Source: a virus. Taken from it: a stretch of 21,857 bases of DNA. The notes beneath the pieces are model-generated. The model was not told the origin of the DNA. It saw nothing but the letters and a program-made list of their open reading frames with translations, and ran no database searches. Below are positions 3,935 through 18,111 of this stretch, piece after piece. The position numbers and the translations under genes were made by a program. Location of the stretch: positions 1-21,857 of IMG/VR virus record IMGVR_UViG_3300022925_000205; one strand, given 5' to 3'. Position 1 is the stretch's first letter, and the number at the start of each line of letters is the position of its first letter.

Positions 3935-4393
3935 CTAAAGCATTAGCTCAAAGTGAGGGCCATCAATGAATGGCCTTCTACCCTGACCTCTACGCAAATC
4001 AATATAAGCATTCATCGCTTCTTCAGCAGTTCCGTCCCAATCAGCAATGCTATCAATATGCCAAGCAGCACCCCAACGGATACGACAACCAACAATACCG
4101 GCTGCTTCTCCCATTGCATCAGCCAAGTCATCATATAAATTTAACTCCCAAGATCCACGCCCATTAATATAAGCCATTAAATCAACAGCCAAACCATCTA
4201 AATGTTTTGACTTCATAGTTTGACTAGCGCCTTTAGCTACTAATTCTTTCTGTTGCTCTATAGTTCTCATGCCTTGAATAACACCAAAGTCAGTCTTGGT
4301 TAAAGTAATAGCCATCTTAACTACAGAAACCAAACGCTCATCAACGCCTTCTAACCTATCAAGGCTGCGTCTACTTAATTTAAACTCACTCAT
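3935..4393 (-). CDS. Endolysin: M15-type (VanY/L,D-endopeptidase-like) peptidoglycan peptidase
   Basis: I use the start at 4393 because it forms an ATGA overlap with the upstream holin-like gene; a longer frame to 4456 would run well into that gene. The 152-aa protein has the zinc-binding set of M15 peptidases: S62-K-H64-L-D-G-L-A-V-D71-L (S-x-H-x-x-G-x-A-x-D-L) and, near the end, G-P-H147-F-E-L. I-R-W-G-A-A-W lies between them, as in M15_4-type endolysins. These enzymes cut peptide cross-links in peptidoglycan for cell lysis. No signal peptide or cell-wall-binding domain is seen, so a holin is probably needed. It ends the late module. Its 3' end is repeated in degraded form at 3812-3886. Confidence 0.85.
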   Translation of the reverse strand: MSEFKLSRRSLDRLEGVDERLVSVVKMAITLTKTDFGVIQGMRTIEQQKELVAKGASQTMKSKHLDGLAVDLMAYINGRGSWELNLYDDLADAMGEAAGIVGCRIRWGAAWHIDSIADWDGTAEEAMNAYIDLRRGQGRRPFIDGPHFELML

Positions 4394-4734
4394 TTTTTTA
4401 ATCCCTTCATTGTGCGGATACCAAAGCTTGCAGCAATAGAGGCATACATTCCCCACTGCACCCAGAGCGGTGTGGTTTCTAAGTTAGCAAATCCAATAGC
4501 CATTACATCCTGCATAGAAGGAATAAAATTCATGCAAAGAATAGCTACAAAAACTATAGTCCATAGCTCATCCTTCCAAGAATCTTTCGATGCTTCTATT
4601 GCTGACTGCTCCCAGTCCATTTCACCAGTAGCTTGCTTGAGCTTAATCTCCGCATTAGCCTTCTGGATTGCAGCCTTACCGTCTAAATAACTGGTGGCTA
4701 AACCACCAACTGCACCTATAATCTGACCAATCAT
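4390..4734 (-). CDS. Holin-like membrane protein (three-helix, GTA-holin-like)
   Basis: The 114-aa product has a short hydrophobic N-terminus (MIGQIIGAVGGLATSYL), a charged middle helix rich in Lys, Glu and Ala (residues 19-50), then two likely membrane segments at about 58-73 (LWTIVFVAILCMNFIP) and 91-106 (WVQWGMYASIAASFGI). It ends in a basic tail (RTMKGLKK). The K-D-E-L-W then TM layout after a charged helix recalls the three-segment holins of gene-transfer agents and many alphaproteobacterial phages. A position directly before the endolysin, with ATGA overlap on both sides, supports a lysis role. The family link is from memory of the pattern. Confidence 0.6.
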   Translation of the reverse strand: MIGQIIGAVGGLATSYLDGKAAIQKANAEIKLKQATGEMDWEQSAIEASKDSWKDELWTIVFVAILCMNFIPSMQDVMAIGFANLETTPLWVQWGMYASIAASFGIRTMKGLKK

Positions 4735-5811: not shown

Positions 5812-6117
5812 TTACCAAGGCACTCCCGCCTCAGTAGTTGGATTAGCTATCGCATCAATCTTAGAAGCAATAGCAGCTTCAGTGGCATCCTTATCCACCG
5901 ATCCATGCACCCAACCCAAGACTACTGTCTCAGTCAAATCAGCGTAAGCAATAAAGTCAGCATCATCTGGATCAGGTGTGTGTGAGGTTGTTCCATAGGA
6001 ACGTGCAGAGTTTCCATCTGCGTCAGTGCCTAAGCAATACCAGTGAACAGTAATAACACCGTCATCTGATGTATTGCGTTCCATGTTGGCTACTGACCAT
6101 GTGTATGTGATAGACAT
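5812..6117 (-). CDS. Small conserved-type phage protein beside the tail fibre
   Basis: AAGGAG lies 8-9 bases before the ATG. The 101-aa protein starts SITYTWSVANMERNTSDDG with VITVHWYCLGTDADGNSA next. It continues with FIAYADLTETVVLGWVHG and ends in a helix (EAAIASKIDAIANP) and EAGVPW. The beginning I-T-Y-x-W-S, the H-W strand, Y-A-D-L-T-E-x-x-V-x-G-W-V and the final G-x-P-W recur in small proteins next to tail genes in marine phages. The predicted mix of strands then a helix suggests a small structural or chaperone protein, but no role has been shown to my knowledge. Confidence 0.6.
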   Translation of the reverse strand: MSITYTWSVANMERNTSDDGVITVHWYCLGTDADGNSARSYGTTSHTPDPDDADFIAYADLTETVVLGWVHGSVDKDATEAAIASKIDAIANPTTEAGVPW

Positions 6118-10632: not shown

Positions 10633-13600
10633 TCACTGCGCCCAAGCGCGAGTAATCTGATTAATGTCATCTTTTAAAAACCACATTCTAGCAAACGGCA
10701 AGTTCCTAACTACTTGTTTGCCGCCTTCTCCATACTCACCATTAGCAAATTGATACATTCCAGAAATAGTATCAGCAGCCCAAGATGGCCCAGCACCAGC
10801 AAGACCAGTTAATGCATCAATAGCATTTGGTTCTTGCGGAAACTTAGGTGATATAAGGCCATTAGTAATATTAGGCCCACCAAGAGCCAAAGAAGTATGC
10901 AAAGAAGTGTAAAGAATATCTGAGTATAATGCCATTACGCCACTCATATCAAAACTTCTAGCAAATCTATCACGCCAACCCATTTCTTCCCAAGCAAAAT
11001 CAGGAGTGCGAATAGACAATGACATATAAGCTAATCCCATAGATGCAGTAATACCTAACATTCTATTCTTAATTTGCCCTTGAGCTAATGCGCCTATAGT
11101 CTTGTTTACGTTAGCTAGCATGTAACTATAAAACTGAAATGGCAAGCCAACAAAACCGTTTTCAATTCTAGTATATCCTTTAAACTTTGGGTCTTCTTTA
11201 AATCCAAATGACCTACCTATATGCGCTGGAATATAAACCACACCATCAGTAATGATTGGCTTGTCAGCAGGGGTCGCAGACATAATTGTATTTAACACAC
11301 CGCTGTTAAGTGCAGTGCGAAACTTTAATACCGTTTCTTCATTAATAATTGACTGAGCCTTATGTTGCTCCATAGCTATTTTATTAATTCTATTTTCATA
11401 CTGAGCTTTGCTCTCACCAGCTTTCTGCAGAAAGTTTGTATGAGCAATCTCATGAAGCATAATAAAATTAGAAAATGCTTTAGGTGTTGGAAAGGCATCT
11501 TCTGGAAGTGGGTTTACACCTTTAACTCTTGGCTTAGTCCAAGCTTTATCTTGATACATTGGCCCTTCAATGTAATCTATATCTGCAAAAATAGTTTTCT
11601 TTTTCTTATCGTAATAAGCGGGTATGTATCTGTCGCCTCTTGTTTTTCCAACAGGTGTGCCATCTTCATTTATAGTTACAATGCGAGCATCAGTTTGTGG
11701 AAAGCTAAGGTTATCAACCCATTCATCTGTATTAGCCATATACAGGCCATTATCTGTTTTGCGCCAAGGTGCATTAGCAATTTGCTTGGCGTCTTCTGCG
11801 CCAATCCCATAGCGAGACAGCCACGTTAGCTCTTGTGGTGTAAGCTCAGTGTACCGAATTGAGTAATCAATAATAGTATGAGCATCAACAATACCAGCAA
11901 GCTGCTTGGCTATTGTAGTCATAGGTGCAAGCCCGTTCATAATGTAAAATGCATTACGAGCATTACTAAGAAAATCACTAGCATCTACGTTATTGGAAAG
12001 ATCTTCCATAAGCCGCATATGCGCAGAACCACGAAGAATATCTATAGCCTCACCAGCATACCTAATCTCATTAGCAGTTAGATTAACTGTGTTTTTATCC
12101 ATAATCGCTTGAATGCCTTTTATAACATTTTCAGCATCATGCTCCATAACAATGCGCCCAAAGTCAGGCAGTGCAGCTAAACCAGCAGAACCCATATAAC
12201 TAAATGAAGCGGCTTCTCTAAGAATAAACGCAGCCTTCTGACTCAAGCTATCTGGATTTCTAATAACTGCACCAGCAGTACGCTCGTACATGTGTAGATA
12301 ATCTCTACGCATTTTGTTTATGTCTTTCTCAGAAAAACCTTTAGCAATCATTTCTGATTCTAAATCAAACAAAACACCATCAACATCCTGACCAAATGCT
12401 TTTGCATACTCATAACGCGGCTCAATGCGAGTAGCGTATGTTTTCATTACAGCAAGCGGATCAGTAACCATAAAATCAGTTACAAGTTTATTAGGTATAT
12501 CTAATTCTCTATGGCGAAAATGCTTAGAACGACCAACACCAAAGCCAATGTTATCTACGTTAGTAGGGTCTTGCTCACCAAGTATACGATCTATTGTTAA
12601 ATCAACGCGCTCTTGAATCTTAGAAGGCTCAGAAGATAATTCAGTCTTAACATATGTAGATGTTTTAGGGTCAAACTCATAAATAAACGGGTTCTGCTTA
12701 TACCAGTTATAAAGAATCTGAGAAAACTCATTACGATTTTTTTTGATTGCAGATTGGCTCCAAAACCTTGGAAAAAACACATCTTCATTAGCAGGGTTAA
12801 TCTTAACTTCTTCTAAGCCCTGCAATGTTTGACGCTCTACGGCTAGCTTACCGCCTATGCGATCAAGCTCACCTTTAATTCTATTAGCTTCAAGTTGACT
12901 GCGAGTAGTTTTTTTTCTTTCTGCTCTAGCTAGTCGTGCATTTAGATCTTCGATCTTTGCTTCAAAGTTTTCTATACGGCGAGACACGCCCTTAGCTGTA
13001 CCTATAAGACCTACATCTTCTAAACGCTCACCAGCATCCTTAAAGTATTTGTTTATAACCCCAATCGCTTTGCGCTCATTGTCAGTAAGATCTTCTATGT
13101 TTTTAATTCTTTTTTCGCTAACTGTAGTTAGCCACTTTCGATAAGTATTTTCAGAGCGAGAAGCACGACGAACAATATCCGTTACGTTAATATCAAGCCT
13201 ACTAATATTAGCTGCACCAGTTTCCGCTGTCCAAAGCTTTATCATTTCGTCATGCGCTCTTACCCACTTACCATTGGATACCGCTGCTCTTTGAGCAACT
13301 GACTGCGGAGAAGCCAAGCCAACAGAGTTTAATGCTAGAGTAATGCCGCTATCTCCAAAGCTACGCACAGTCGCTTCTTTAATTGCTGACGGATATTTTG
13401 ATTGTAGCAAACGTTTGACTGGTGTGGTGACCGCTTTGTAAAGAAAACTGTCAGTGTAGAGCGTATTCATAATTCTATACGGATCTGTAAGATCTATGTT
13501 CCTAGCTTCTAGCTCACGAATGCCCTGCTCGTTTTTAAACTGCTGTGCGTAAGCCCTTTGCTCTTGCGCTCTAGCTTCAAACTGAGCAGCCTCTGATCTG

Positions 13601-14367
13601 CCCTCATAAGCAATAGCATCTGCTTCTGAGCGAGCAGCAGAAGACTCAAACATATCTAGTTGTGCTTGCAAGTATTCATCGCTGTCATTGCCAAATCTAC
13701 GCTCTGCTCTTGGCACACTAATCTGTTCTGTTGTAACGCCCTCTAATCTATCTAGGCGCTTAATCATATCAAATTCTTCTTGAATACCCTGCTTTGTCTT
13801 TGCATAAGCCTTAGCGTTTACACCACCAAAGCCAGCTCCAAAGCCAGCACCAAACATGCCAGCAGATAATACATTTATTGCGCCCTCTTCGGCTGTCTGC
13901 AAAGGATCAGACTGCCTAGTTAGCTCTAAGCCTAGTTCTAATGCAGCAGTACCAGCGCCAACGCGCAGAGCAGAACGACCTACTCCAACAGCAGGGCCAC
14001 CAAAAGGAAGAGCAACGAGATTAATAGGATCAAATAAACCAGCACCAAGTTGAGAAAGAATAGATGAGTTTTGAAGAACCTGTCGCCTAGATATTGAGTC
14101 TTCTATATCTTGCTTTAGTTTTGCCATGTGCTGTGGACTAACAGCGTGATTAAGATCAGTTGCAAATAATTCATAACCTTCTAAGTCTTGTCGCCAGTCA
14201 TATCCCTTTTGAGGATTGTAACGAAAGGAATTAGTAAGAGTATTATATAAAGGAGCATAACTGTAACCAAGAGAGGCACCAAGCGTATCAAGAAATGATG
14301 GATCTGGCTGTTCAACTACACCTTGCGCAAAATACCCTGCACGAAAGCTATTTGGATCTACTACCAT
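10633..14367 (-). CDS. Large internal virion protein (T7 gp16 position) with HEXXH motif
   Basis: The 1244-aa protein occupies the place of T7 gp16, the ejected core protein, between the 1095-aa protein and the tail fibre. The ATG directly follows the upstream stop, with GAGGA in the last codons of that gene. It has a Gly-rich hydrophobic stretch at about 166-185 (LSAGMFGAGFGAGFGGV) and a long coiled coil at about 455-525 (RIENFEAKIEDLNARLARAE and following). A predicted metallopeptidase-like segment has TIFADIDYI upstream and M970-L-H972-E973-I-A-H976-T, an HEXXH zinc motif, in its context. I see no lytic transglycosylase motif of the T7 gp16 kind. It probably helps form the ejection channel; the peptidase-like part could process proteins or act on cell wall or host targets (inference). 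Confidence 0.72.
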   Translation of the reverse strand: MVVDPNSFRAGYFAQGVVEQPDPSFLDTLGASLGYSYAPLYNTLTNSFRYNPQKGYDWRQDLEGYELFATDLNHAVSPQHMAKLKQDIEDSISRRQVLQNSSILSQLGAGLFDPINLVALPFGGPAVGVGRSALRVGAGTAALELGLELTRQSDPLQTAEEGAINVLSAGMFGAGFGAGFGGVNAKAYAKTKQGIQEEFDMIKRLDRLEGVTTEQISVPRAERRFGNDSDEYLQAQLDMFESSAARSEADAIAYEGRSEAAQFEARAQEQRAYAQQFKNEQGIRELEARNIDLTDPYRIMNTLYTDSFLYKAVTTPVKRLLQSKYPSAIKEATVRSFGDSGITLALNSVGLASPQSVAQRAAVSNGKWVRAHDEMIKLWTAETGAANISRLDINVTDIVRRASRSENTYRKWLTTVSEKRIKNIEDLTDNERKAIGVINKYFKDAGERLEDVGLIGTAKGVSRRIENFEAKIEDLNARLARAERKKTTRSQLEANRIKGELDRIGGKLAVERQTLQGLEEVKINPANEDVFFPRFWSQSAIKKNRNEFSQILYNWYKQNPFIYEFDPKTSTYVKTELSSEPSKIQERVDLTIDRILGEQDPTNVDNIGFGVGRSKHFRHRELDIPNKLVTDFMVTDPLAVMKTYATRIEPRYEYAKAFGQDVDGVLFDLESEMIAKGFSEKDINKMRRDYLHMYERTAGAVIRNPDSLSQKAAFILREAASFSYMGSAGLAALPDFGRIVMEHDAENVIKGIQAIMDKNTVNLTANEIRYAGEAIDILRGSAHMRLMEDLSNNVDASDFLSNARNAFYIMNGLAPMTTIAKQLAGIVDAHTIIDYSIRYTELTPQELTWLSRYGIGAEDAKQIANAPWRKTDNGLYMANTDEWVDNLSFPQTDARIVTINEDGTPVGKTRGDRYIPAYYDKKKKTIFADIDYIEGPMYQDKAWTKPRVKGVNPLPEDAFPTPKAFSNFIMLHEIAHTNFLQKAGESKAQYENRINKIAMEQHKAQSIINEETVLKFRTALNSGVLNTIMSATPADKPIITDGVVYIPAHIGRSFGFKEDPKFKGYTRIENGFVGLPFQFYSYMLANVNKTIGALAQGQIKNRMLGITASMGLAYMSLSIRTPDFAWEEMGWRDRFARSFDMSGVMALYSDILYTSLHTSLALGGPNITNGLISPKFPQEPNAIDALTGLAGAGPSWAADTISGMYQFANGEYGEGGKQVVRNLPFARMWFLKDDINQITRAWAQ

Positions 14368-17300
14368 TTAATCCTCGACGCCATTAATAATACTAATCAT
14401 TGATTTTAGGTCTACTTCAAGCTGTCTAGCCAAGGGATTTTTGTCTCGTTTTATTATTGATAGCATACTGCTTAAAGCTATTAATGATTGATTAAATGGA
14501 ACTTCACCAATCCTGCTGTAAGACCTAAGCATTGCTGGCTTAACTGAACTAAGAGATTTGTATTTATCAACATCAACAATAGTTTTTAATTCATCTATTG
14601 CCTCTTGCTGGGTAAACTTTTTCTGAGCAATCTGAGCTTTATACTCTACTCCAAATCCCAATCTTTCTTGGACGGCTCGACCAAGTTTAGTTCTTTCTGC
14701 TATAACTGACGCCTTGCTAGGTTGAGCGGCTTCTTCTGTAGCAATATCTACTTGCTCTTGTTCAGCAGCTTTCATTCTTTTTTCTTTAGCAGCAGCAAAC
14801 AAAGGTTCATTTGTAGAAAAGAATGCAGGAACAATAACAGCTTCTTCTGTATCAGGCTCAAGCTGCATAGAAACTTCTTGCAAGTCTCGCCCACCAGTTT
14901 CATTCTCAATTACAACTCCATAAGTCATGCCGCTATCTTCATCATTGTACCCAACAGGCGTTAGCTTAAACTCAACAGAGTTCCAATCTATATCTTTATT
15001 GGGAGAGTTTTGCGCTAAGGAAGAGCGAATATAGTCCATAAATGCTTGCTCATTGCCTTTGGCTGTAACAGACAACGGGTACAGCGTTTGACTAGAGCCA
15101 GACAAAGTAATGATTCGATCATCCTCAACAAAGTTCTTATCTATATCAGACTGAAGAGCAGATATTAAATCATCAGTAGACTCAGGTTTAATTTCACCAG
15201 CGTTCTTAAAGTAATGCATTCTTGTTTTAGCAAGCAATCTACCTAATAAGTTTGAATTAAAACTAGTTTCTAGAAAATTCTTAACAACAAATTCTCTAGC
15301 GTCCTTTACACCTTCACCCTTAAAGTAATCATCCATCTTTTCTTTAAGTGCAGGATTACTCATAGTCATTTTTAGTTTTTGCATGTGAAGCACTAAAGCG
15401 GAAGGATCATTATTTATTTGAGCAAACGCAACAGCTTCATCCATTAATACTCTTTGATCTTTAGATAGAGAGTTTGCTCCTCCAGATTGTACTGGCACCC
15501 CTTGATCTGTCTGATACTCAGAAGATTTTGCGTAAGTCATTATAATTCTTTTGACTTCATCTTCCTGAGAAATGTTTCCGTTAAGAAATGCATCAATAGT
15601 ATCTACTTGAGCTTGAGGCCAGATAGAATGAGATGTTTGAGAAACCATTGCGGTTAATTGAGCATACTCAGGATCATTATACTTTGGGTTACGAAAAAAG
15701 TCGTCAGGTATTCTCAGAAGCTTTTGAAAAAGAATACGATCATCTTCAGTTGTTTCTCCAAGAGTGCCATCAAAAGCATCTCGCAGAAGCTTATCGTCAG
15801 AAGCAATCTTTACATTAAGCTTGTAACGTCGTTTTGCTCCTTCGCTATATCTGTCTACAGATGCACTATATGAAGACGGATCATCAAAAGACTGTCTGGC
15901 CTTATCTATTATAGATTTTCTTTGAGGACTAACAAGATTGTTAGGGTCAACTCCATCCCTAGCATAAAGCGCAGCAGCTTCTATTGCTTTAGGATTAGTC
16001 ATGCCACTAAACGCAAATCGAACAAAAGCTTCTGAAGTTTTATTTGCTAAAGCGCTTTGAAACTTTTCTTTATCACCATCTTGAAGTTCAGTTTTATTTA
16101 GTTCGTCTATTGAATTCCCTCTAATTATCTCAATTTCCTCAACACTTTCTGCTGAGAATAAATTAGGAAATGTTCTTCCCTTAAGGTAATCGTCATAATA
16201 AAGAGCATTATCTGTTTTTCTTTGAAATTCTGAAAAACGAGTTTCATCTCTTACACCTTCTGCATATGATATAGCTTCAGTTAAGAATTGAGGATTTTGA
16301 CTATTTCTTGCCATATCAGTTAAAATAACTGCTAAAGGCTGTGAGGCTTCATTAACTTTGTTTAAATTATCGTCAGTTGGATTTCTTAAATAATTTTGAA
16401 TATTAACAACATCTTCTACTGAAGTCGCTTCAGCAAGCAGGTTATTAATTACTCCATCTTTAACAATATTTAATCTTCTAAAAGATCCAGCTGTAGCGGC
16501 TTCTATTTGTCCTTGAGATGCGCCTGAATCTATTAAGTTAATTTGCGTCTGCAAATCTGTCATATAGTTAGAAACCGCATCTGATGCTGTTCCAGCAACA
16601 TCTGAATTAGCGCCAGTAATTATATTAAAGTAGTCACTATTAGCTTTAGATTTATTATCTGAATCATCTGCAATACGTTTACGTGTTGCTATTTCAGCAG
16701 TAAGTCTAGTTTGATTTAAACCATCTTCTAGAAGCTCAGTAGCAAAAGCAGAGAATGATTCTGTAAAAGTTGCACCCTCAGCACTAAGAGATTTAAATGT
16801 ATTCTCAAAGCCTTTGCCCTTAAGACCTGATAGATCACCGCTATCTATAGCATTTAAAGCAGCTTCAAGATCAAAGCGTGAGCTACCATTCTTTATTGCT
16901 TGTCTTAACTCGTATCTAAACTGCCCTCTAACCTTTGCAAGCTGTCTATTCTTAGCGTTGCCAATAGTTGCATTTGAAAGAATAGTGCCAGCAGCAACAT
17001 TATCCGCATCCATCTTTTGAGCAGATTCTATTAAATTATCACCAGTAGTATTATCACCAGCAGCAAATGCATCTTCAATATTAAGAGAAGCTTCAGAGTT
17101 GTTGAACTCATAAAGAATTTCATCATTACGTTCTTGTCTAGCAATAGCTTGAGATTGAAGCGCTCTATATTTTTGAGATTGAATGGCATTACCAATTCTT
17201 AGAATCTCGTTTTTAAATACAGTAGACTCTTCTACATTTGACATCTCAGCAATGTAATCAGACATAGCTGTATTAAATGCTTCTGGGCTTTTTCTATTCT

Positions 17301-17655
17301 CAAGAGCAAGTTCTTTAGATTTGTCCTCAATTTCTGTTGCAATCTCTTGCTCAAAACGAGAAAGCAAAACACTTTGATAAGCTTTTAAAGCATAACGACC
17401 CATTCCTTTTGGCCCATTATATGCTGCTGGCCTTCCAGTTTCCGGATCAAGTGCTGTTATTTCAGAAGCCTCTAAGGCTTGAGCCGAATCAATACCAGCT
17501 TGCTTTGCATCTTCAACAGATCTACGAAACAAGTATTGCTGCGCTTGATTGGCACTTCTTGCAACTTGCTCACCTATAATCTGACCAGCCGAAGATGATC
17601 TGGCTACACCAATAGGCCCAATTTTAAATTGTCTAGCTTCTCTAATAACAGCCAT
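14368..17655 (-). CDS. Internal virion protein (T7 gp15 position), 1095 aa
   Basis: The protein follows the gp14-like gene and precedes the gp16-like gene, and its length suits a T7-type internal core protein. It is predicted to be mostly helical, rich in Ala, Glu, Asp, Asn and Ser, without membrane segments or cysteine clusters. The N-terminus (KIGPIGVARSSSAGQIIGEQ) followed by ARSANQAQQYLFRRSVEDAK is typical of such core proteins in podoviruses. The start at 17655 has AGGAT in front. No enzymatic motif is seen. It is expected to be stored in the capsid around the portal and ejected into the cell with the gp14- and gp16-like proteins. The function rests on gene order rather than sequence signature. 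Confidence 0.7.
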   Translation of the reverse strand: MAVIREARQFKIGPIGVARSSSAGQIIGEQVARSANQAQQYLFRRSVEDAKQAGIDSAQALEASEITALDPETGRPAAYNGPKGMGRYALKAYQSVLLSRFEQEIATEIEDKSKELALENRKSPEAFNTAMSDYIAEMSNVEESTVFKNEILRIGNAIQSQKYRALQSQAIARQERNDEILYEFNNSEASLNIEDAFAAGDNTTGDNLIESAQKMDADNVAAGTILSNATIGNAKNRQLAKVRGQFRYELRQAIKNGSSRFDLEAALNAIDSGDLSGLKGKGFENTFKSLSAEGATFTESFSAFATELLEDGLNQTRLTAEIATRKRIADDSDNKSKANSDYFNIITGANSDVAGTASDAVSNYMTDLQTQINLIDSGASQGQIEAATAGSFRRLNIVKDGVINNLLAEATSVEDVVNIQNYLRNPTDDNLNKVNEASQPLAVILTDMARNSQNPQFLTEAISYAEGVRDETRFSEFQRKTDNALYYDDYLKGRTFPNLFSAESVEEIEIIRGNSIDELNKTELQDGDKEKFQSALANKTSEAFVRFAFSGMTNPKAIEAAALYARDGVDPNNLVSPQRKSIIDKARQSFDDPSSYSASVDRYSEGAKRRYKLNVKIASDDKLLRDAFDGTLGETTEDDRILFQKLLRIPDDFFRNPKYNDPEYAQLTAMVSQTSHSIWPQAQVDTIDAFLNGNISQEDEVKRIIMTYAKSSEYQTDQGVPVQSGGANSLSKDQRVLMDEAVAFAQINNDPSALVLHMQKLKMTMSNPALKEKMDDYFKGEGVKDAREFVVKNFLETSFNSNLLGRLLAKTRMHYFKNAGEIKPESTDDLISALQSDIDKNFVEDDRIITLSGSSQTLYPLSVTAKGNEQAFMDYIRSSLAQNSPNKDIDWNSVEFKLTPVGYNDEDSGMTYGVVIENETGGRDLQEVSMQLEPDTEEAVIVPAFFSTNEPLFAAAKEKRMKAAEQEQVDIATEEAAQPSKASVIAERTKLGRAVQERLGFGVEYKAQIAQKKFTQQEAIDELKTIVDVDKYKSLSSVKPAMLRSYSRIGEVPFNQSLIALSSMLSIIKRDKNPLARQLEVDLKSMISIINGVED

Positions 17656-17664
17656 GTTTTTATC

Positions 17665-18111
17665 CTATGCTGTAGTATCTTTATAGTCAGCAGTTGCTTG
17701 AGCTATTGTAGTAAATGCAGAAATAGTTGCAGACTGTCTTCTGGCTCTACCTTCTATTCTTGTAGTAGTCGCTTGTTGTTGCAATTTCATTTGCTCAAAA
17801 AAACCCATTAAATCAGATCTCTGTGTATCTTGAAGGGCAACTTCTTTTTGTCGATTTAAAAAAGCAGATACTGATTTATCAGATTGAACATCTCTACCCA
17901 TTGCAGAAAATGCAGCTATATTTGCTTTTGCATTATATCTATATTGCTCAAGTCTATCGTTATGACGTTGTAAAGTTTCAACTTTAGCTAATTCTTTTTG
18001 AGTTTCTATATTAAAAGCATCAAGCCTTGCTGACTGTTCGGCAGCTTGACCCGCTGCAATCTGACCTACTGCTGACAATCCAGCTGCACCCGCTGCAAGT
18101 ATTTGCCACAT
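17665..18111 (-). CDS. Internal virion protein (T7 gp14-like), 148 aa
   Basis: The N-terminus WQILAAGAAGLSAVGQIAAG is a Gly/Ala-rich, membrane-active-looking segment. It is followed by long helices with Gln, Arg and Ala (EQSARLDAFNIETQKELAKV, FLNRQKEVALQDTQRSDLMG). This is the layout of T7 gp14-type internal proteins, which go into the outer membrane on infection and start the ejection channel. Size and order agree: after the tail tube B gene and before the large core proteins. The start overlaps the tail tube B stop as TAATG; the Shine-Dalgarno is weak, so translational coupling is likely. Confidence 0.72.
   Translation of the reverse strand: MWQILAAGAAGLSAVGQIAAGQAAEQSARLDAFNIETQKELAKVETLQRHNDRLEQYRYNAKANIAAFSAMGRDVQSDKSVSAFLNRQKEVALQDTQRSDLMGFFEQMKLQQQATTTRIEGRARRQSATISAFTTIAQATADYKDTTA

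Follow-up and report, generated by a model that had tools for sequence, protein, structure and literature searches.

Gene neighbourhood and identity of the carrier protein

The DNA analysed here, which we refer to as the window, is a stretch of 21,857 nucleotides representing positions 1 to 21,857 of the IMG/VR virus record IMGVR_UViG_3300022925_000205. On its minus strand, at positions 10633 to 14367, an open reading frame of 1244 amino acids encodes a gp16-like ejection (internal virion) protein whose residues 20 to 865 match profile positions 220 to 997 of phrog_342, “internal virion protein with endolysin domain”, with an E-value of 2.4e-34. On the same strand there follow a gp15-like gene (14368 to 17655, 1095 amino acids), which is named by its position and size only, and the gene of a gp14-like internal virion protein (17665 to 18111, 148 amino acids) which matches phrog_418, “internal virion protein”, with an E-value of 1.4e-5. 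A tail fibre gene (1475 amino acids, with S74 chaperone) is located on the other side of the gp16-like gene, and the order gp14, gp15, gp16, tail fibre is present in the window, the gp15-like gene being assigned on the basis just given. The gp16 protein of T7 shares with the window protein the scaffold, the gene order (14-15-16-17) and the presumed ejection. Judged from the sequence of its scaffold, by which we mean residues 1 to 883 and 1013 to 1244, the carrier is homologous to the T7 gp16-like internal virion proteins. A first-pass annotation of the window had described it as an ejected internal virion protein, and both the profile match and the neighbouring genes bear out this identity, ejection itself being presumed by analogy with T7.

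The window protein differs from T7 gp16 in lacking the N-terminal transglycosylase of the latter. No lytic transglycosylase was recognised in it by either PHROG or Pfam: the phrog_342 match starts only at profile position 220, which leaves the profile region corresponding to the T7 transglycosylase unmatched, and Pfam yielded nothing significant. The first-pass annotation, which had been unable to find this domain, was thus right on this point. In gp16-like proteins the N-terminal transglycosylase is described as phage-specific and not universal in the relevant sections of PMC8954989. Neither Pfam nor PHROG revealed a peptidoglycan hydrolase in the gp15-like protein of the window, nor was any hydrolase recognised in eight gp15-like relatives. 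Among the gp16-like relatives, L017 carries an N-terminal Phage_lysozyme domain (9.9e-5) and L021 an N-terminal Pesticin-type lysozyme domain (3e-35), each alongside the zincin described below. One recognised effector-type domain is present in the window protein; L017 and L021 possess lysozyme plus zincin. Both lysozyme domains take up the N-terminal position which the transglycosylase has in T7.

Several further genes of the window were noted in passing. An M15-type endolysin is encoded at 3935 to 4456 (minus strand; phrog_465 with an E-value of 1.3e-48, Peptidase_M15_4 just at its cut-off), and a DUF7936 protein (E-value 7.2e-31) at 5812 to 6117 (minus strand), with the tail fibre gene on one side and small genes close to the endolysin on the other. 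On the plus strand, positions 1093 to 1857 encode a YqaJ-like recombinase/nuclease domain (PF09588, E-value 1.1e-5), and the start of a small open reading frame at 1854 to 2231 resembles a GIY-YIG nuclease when its translation is read by eye.

A conserved HEXXH motif and its predicted third ligand

As the first-pass annotation had pointed out, residues M970-L971-H972-E973-I974-A975-H976 of the gp16-like protein (positions 11440 to 11460) contain a HEXXH motif. This motif, HEIAH (H972 to H976; 11440 to 11454, minus strand), is predicted to supply two zinc ligands as well as the general base, E973. It is the sole HEXXH in the 1244 residues of the protein, for which 0.010 such motifs are expected from composition, and none occurs in the three neighbouring virion open reading frames. 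The search for a third ligand, which the first-pass annotation had recommended, leads to E991 (11395 to 11397, minus strand), situated just outside the interval which that annotation had covered. This predicted ligand lies within the pattern Y-E-N-x-I-N, is separated from H976 by 14 residues and sits on the next helix after HEXXH in both AlphaFold models described below. In an alignment of the window protein with 79 distinct relatives (80 rows; 79 of 86 open reading frames were kept, short or identical ones being dropped), H972 and E973 are each retained in 79 rows and H976 and E991 each in 78, the third glutamate being surrounded by Y990, N992, I994 and N995. Across the census of gp16-like proteins described below, 117 of 118 HEXXH domains possess the third glutamate. 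The active-site helix is preceded by a strand comprising T925 to D929 (11581 to 11595, minus strand), which model 1 places at model residues 76 to 79, corresponding to window residues 925 to 928; D929 is an aspartate in 76 of the 80 rows. The first-pass annotation had taken the whole of TIFADIDYI (residues 925 to 933) as a strand. According to model 1 this applies to its first half, while the second half already begins a helix.

The segment holds HEXXH in 84 of 86 loci of IMG/VR relatives, some contigs of which were fetched twice. These first relatives, the best 80 of 119 loci, were found partly via a pattern containing the motif (NFIMLHEI). Among loci found by patterns outside the motif (the best 80 of 244), HEXXH is present in 79 of 80; this set shares most contigs with the first and thus constitutes a check on selection rather than a fresh sample. 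An exception is L025 (L128 in the motif-independent set), a fragment of 434 amino acids with the domain at the same place as in the window (site 3, see below), in which the three ligands have given way to R, V and D although the remainder of the domain can still be recognised. With all three ligands lost jointly, L025 looks like a natural dead copy. The conservation of the two histidines and the glutamate, to which the first-pass annotation had tied its proposal, accordingly holds in the close homologues but fails in this fragment. Compared with the two closest relatives tested, the domain exhibits dN/dS ratios of 0.05 and 0.067; the ratios for L037 versus L043 (0.276) and L037 versus L045 (0.168) are above those of their flanks, and several near-identical or saturated pairs yield no ratio. 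On this evidence the domain is under purifying selection.

Predicted fold and family matches

Two AlphaFold models were computed, the first of residues 850 to 1085 from 55 sequences (mean pLDDT 72, with values of about 85 to 93 over most of the domain core), the second of residues 896 to 1014 from 79 sequences (pLDDT 87.8, pTM 0.82). Model 2 begins nine residues after the stretch which most rows aligned in model 1. Structural alignment of model 1 by VIA-align places PprI and IrrE at the top, with Z-scores of 6.6 and 6.5 and rmsd values of 2.0 and 2.2 over 76 to 77 residues, followed by ERAP1 and ArdC (Z 5.1), mini-gluzincins (4.9), BepA, Wss1, lethal factor and selecase. Almost all of the leading rows are zinc peptidases, although a Z-score below 8 is not proof in itself. 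The alignments of model 2 are weaker, with a best Z-score of 5.2 and zincins mixed with unrelated folds, and Foldseek found no match in the PDB below an E-value of 1.2 for model 1 or 2.0 for model 2. A zincin-type fold is likely from the model 1 alignments taken together with the ligand pattern. The zincin setting assumed by the first-pass annotation is therefore supported by the best rows of model 1 and only weakly matched by model 2. A viral structure library gave as its four top matches, with E-values up to 5e-4, proteins of 990 to 1325 residues which are either unnamed or uncharacterised.

Family profiles match the domain weakly. Among 55 members, we found Peptidase_M4_C in 12, DUF4344 in five, MPTase-PolyVal in four and M78 in two, and no Pfam family was shown to reach its cut-off for the domain. 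MPTase-PolyVal (PF18818) gave no match to the window segment and a best E-value of 0.0069, short of its cut-off, in the four members; a separate search of the window with this family was likewise negative, as were its controls. Peptidase_M78 (PF06114) did not match the window segment either, and a separate search of the window with it gave no match while 7 of 14 controls matched. IrrE/PprI and Peptidase_M78 resemble the window domain in the best structural alignments, whereas the M78 profile barely matches it (two of 55 members, best 0.071, cut-off not reached). In M78 the HEXXH motif is followed by a Glu-x-x-x-Asn stretch, as in the window domain. A search of NCBIfam returned nothing, and sequence searches against solved structures returned nothing relevant. 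On the ligand pattern, its conservation and the predicted fold, we consider the segment very probably a gluzincin-type zinc metallopeptidase domain, with zinc binding and proteolysis as predicted properties.

An insertion found at three sites and in two subtypes

An alignment gap and the AlphaFold models delimit the zincin-type domain as an insertion of residues about 884 to 1012 (11332 to 11718, minus strand), designated site 3 and subtype A. Between about W883 and V1013 it is missing in Hodr, in Vibrio phages and in T7, as seen in the gp16 alignment; T7 gp16 possesses no insert where the window zincin is placed, at about T7 residues 1006 to 1075. In 144 unique proteins (of 249 rows, open reading frames without both anchors being left out) the flanking anchors are separated by no more than 15 residues in 54 and by at least 100 in 90.

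Two further sites are empty in the window protein and occupied in relatives. Site 2 is located at residue 566 (12670 to 12672, minus strand), after which L225 bears an insert of 169 residues holding HEFHH; the layout of profile matches reveals occupation of this site in L225, L227, L228, L231, L242, L250, L264 and others. Six of these (L225, L227, L228, L231, L242 and L250) had been considered domain losses, an assignment overturned by the relocated HEXXH copy. Site 1, defined by alignment and census, comprises residues about 222 to 290 (13498 to 13704, minus strand); it is occupied by an intact domain in L283 to L286 and by a degenerate copy in the Hodr clade. The census covers 164 of 286 open reading frames, contained copies being dropped, from loci which are the best 80 of 119, of 244 and of 356 confirmed and hence not a random sample. 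The first profiles detect the domain in 148 of the 164 distinct gp16-like proteins, and 154 are reached after one iteration. The 148 are made up of 99 intact and one dead domain at site 3, 16 intact domains at site 2, and three intact and 29 degenerate ones at site 1. By profile, ten open reading frames of the census have no copy, including those of Vibrio phages, L239 and two short fragments. From the census 92 domains were chosen, of which 80 and 79 rows entered two alignments (A4, A5). In two proteins a weaker partial match directly precedes an intact HEXXH domain, possibly as tandem copies (L267_1851, 960-1041 and 1053-1236; L211_1210, 638-702 and 709-822).

A profile of the second subtype, B, finds its matches in gp16-like open reading frames at all 32 of 32 loci, and its matches in L283 to L286 revealed site 1. 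The exchange of subtypes is most clearly seen in L004, which outside residues 851 to 1050 is 88 to 100% identical to the window protein per block of 50 residues, mostly 96% or more and about 97% on either flank of the domain. Within 851 to 1000, in contrast, identity falls to 23 to 62% with large insertions, and the L004 domain belongs to the other subtype. The pair L027/L278 displays the same pattern of near-identical scaffolds with differing domains. In this pair, an extra variable stretch at L027 residues 351 to 450 has 54 to 74% identity, the scaffolds being otherwise mostly 96 to 100% identical. An earlier scaffold tree used 82 of 130 rows and a later one 89 of 148, near-copies being dropped. 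On the latter, counting well-supported branches only, subtype B at site 3 requires at least seven gains or losses; there are four or more changes of site and two of activity state, L025 not being in the tree. As far as sequences can tell, these comparisons show the domain to be a self-contained cassette, two divergent subtypes of which replace one another on scaffolds that hardly differ.

Degenerate copies at site 1

The 29 degenerate copies at site 1 exhibit K-E-x-x-[R/K/S/A/I] in place of H-E-x-x-H. The first histidine is replaced by lysine in all of them, the second by arginine in 11, lysine in 11, serine in four, alanine in two and isoleucine in one, while the equivalent of E973 is kept throughout and the third glutamate is Glu in 27 and Asp in two. 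Positive side chains apparently stand in place of the metal. One of these copies belongs to Hodr, a cultured Pelagibacter phage on which our literature search found no paper. Hodr had been taken to lack the domain until the degenerate copy was found at site 1 of its gp16-like open reading frame (L086, residues about 268 to 361; Hodr record 29512 to 29850). Aligned within the same domain, “FAMKKEVYRGVY...FENRIN” in Hodr faces “FIMLHEIAHTNF...YENRIN” in the window. When the window domain was run by tblastn against a whole phages collection, the Hodr copy was the sole match (E-value 3e-6, 31.6% identity), and no intact copy was detected among the cultured phages of that collection. Bacterial genomes yielded one MAG fragment (L256), in whose gp16-like open reading frame the profiles found no domain. 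No recognised hydrolase is present in the gp14- to gp16-like proteins of Hodr. As 29 of 148 domains lack both histidines and a cultured phage bears such a copy, metal catalysis is not indispensable for the domain to be of use.

Comparison with known systems

Zincins in large injected phage proteins have precedents. Excerpts of Iyer et al. 2017 (PMC5512222) describe zincins as the commonest domain type of polyvalent proteins, N4 vRNAP included, and place the MPTase domains N-terminally, C-terminally or mid-protein; the N4 vRNAP zincin is also mentioned in an excerpt of PMC8472413. Like the window domain, these polyvalent-protein zincins combine HEXXH with a glutamate on the next helix, as presented in the same excerpts of PMC5512222. 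The window domain differs from them in its carrier, a gp16-type ejection protein, and in its weak match to PF18818. The words gp16, ejection and internal core are all absent from the main text of Iyer et al. 2017. A comparison with the zincin segment of N4 vRNAP by hhalign gave no match, which is a weak test with a single-sequence template. ArdC of plasmid R388 is likewise a zincin in an invasion protein and aligns with model 1 at a Z-score of 5.1 (rmsd 2.9 over 80 residues), but it possesses a ssDNA-binding domain, none of which was recognised in the window protein; hhalign against ArdC, again a weak test with a single-sequence template, gave no support (probability 0.1%). A HERLH sequence at residue 559 of T7 gp16 was considered as a zincin; on reading of the stretch it has no conserved context and was taken as chance. 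Among the matches listed in our literature search, no zincin or metallopeptidase is reported in T7-type ejection proteins, and only N4 vRNAP and polyvalent proteins appear. Zincins in injected phage proteins are therefore known; new are the gp16-type carrier, the mobility of the domain and its dead clade.

Place of action and possible function

According to a weak MAFFT alignment, the three sites correspond to T7 gp16 residues about 438 to 481, 730 and 1006 to 1075. The relevant sections of PMC8954989 place residues 411 to 1118 of T7 gp16 in the host cytoplasm, the placement of gp16-C itself being a model, and the transglycosylase (residues 1 to 156) in the periplasm. They also state that the mutations G737D, I754T and E761K release DNA entry; by the same weak alignment these positions are near the site-2 equivalent. 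By analogy with T7, the gp16-like protein would be packaged in the head and leave it before the DNA does, its portion with all three sites ending up in the host cytoplasm. Such cytoplasmic delivery of the domain appears probable to us. There, H972, H976 and E991 would act as zinc ligands with E973 as base, and the domain would cut in trans a host cytoplasmic protein, most likely one of defence or regulation which the DNA encounters on entry.

Our best explanation as a whole, to which we assign a probability of roughly 0.5, is that a zinc peptidase travels into the cell as part of the ejection protein and cleaves some protein of the host cytoplasm. The peptidase-like character proposed by the first-pass annotation is backed by the conservation of the three ligands, by a fold which lends support, by purifying selection and by modular insertion, with cutting itself as a prediction. 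Since the domain is indifferent to position, is exchanged between subtypes and conserves its ligands strictly within its clade, a delivered effector is favoured over a structural part or self-processing; its position independence and subtype swapping, together with occasional catalytic loss, fit the cutting of a host protein better than a building role. Against this explanation count L239, in which no copy is detectable, the degenerate copies without the histidines, and ArdC, whose peptidase activity is reported as dispensable for antirestriction (PMC7213743). As to the substrate, it may well be a host protein rather than the ejection apparatus itself. Possible, but put forward tentatively, is a wider reading in which the zincin lineage hops among at least three gp16 sites, the two subtypes are swapped to meet changing host targets at DNA entry, and the domain of the large Hodr clade has turned into a metal-free pseudo-peptidase, where lysine plus arginine or lysine would replace the zinc ligands and perhaps hold E973 and E991 by salt bridges, the domain perhaps being a decoy or binder.

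Alternatively, the zincin might cut the ejection protein itself or its gp14- or gp15-like partners, either while still in the head or once ejected, and so release or remodel parts of the ejectosome. Autoprocessing by metallopeptidase domains of polyvalent proteins has been proposed and P1 DdrB is cleaved before encapsidation, while N4 vRNAP is packaged unprocessed (all as given in excerpts of Iyer et al. 2017, PMC5512222). The invariable residence in gp16-like open reading frames (32 of 32 loci) would suit such a role, yet three sites and swaps among near-identical scaffolds are unexpected if a fixed nearby cleavage site served, and we regard self-processing as rather unlikely. It is more doubtful still that the domain serves chiefly for binding, be it to DNA, to a host protein or to a partner subunit, the metal site being optional. 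The strongest reasons for keeping such a binding role in consideration are the degenerate clade, including Hodr, whose 29 domains retain E973 and Glu/Asp991 without the histidine ligands, and the peptidase activity of ArdC, dispensable for antirestriction according to the pertinent part of PMC7213743. Nearly invariant ligands in the window's clade and purifying selection on the domain stand against it, as does the confinement of degeneracy, L025 aside, to one clade at one site, with only two changes of activity on the tree.

A cell-wall endopeptidase which replaces the T7 gp16 transglycosylase by cutting peptidoglycan cross-links would be in line with the lack of a recognised transglycosylase in the gp16- and gp15-like proteins of the window and in the eight gp15-like relatives. 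As L017 and L021 possess an N-terminal wall hydrolase as well as the zincin, however, the latter does not simply replace a wall enzyme, which weakens the hint of a transglycosylase stand-in contained in the first-pass annotation; Hodr gets by with neither a recognised hydrolase in its gp14- to gp16-like proteins nor an intact zincin. Moreover, all sites fall, by the weak alignment, within the portion of gp16 presumed to be cytoplasmic, so that the domain would be cytoplasmic at any site if this placement holds, disfavouring a wall substrate and rendering this role quite improbable. Finally, a chance HEXXH without a metal site, with which family profiles below cut-off and Foldseek PDB E-values above 1 would agree, is rejected on the conservation across relatives and is highly improbable in view of four positions kept in 78 to 79 of 80 rows, the joint loss in L025, the zincin-like model and the expectation of 0.010.

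Implications for the phage group

The phage of the window is uncultured and belongs to a group known mainly from environmental DNA, and within the gp16-like proteins of this group the domain looks like a delivered tool. Nature has supplied a set of controls in the form of the near-identical scaffolds of the window and L004 with their two subtypes, the loss of all three ligands in L025, the clade devoid of the histidines and the lysozymes beside the zincin, while Hodr, as a cultured Pelagibacter phage, offers a first opportunity to study the degenerate form by experiment. Little is known of how podoviruses shield their DNA during the first minute of infection. If the domain is an active protease that enters ahead of the genome, a structural protein of these phages would contain an enzyme for early host takeover or counter-defence.
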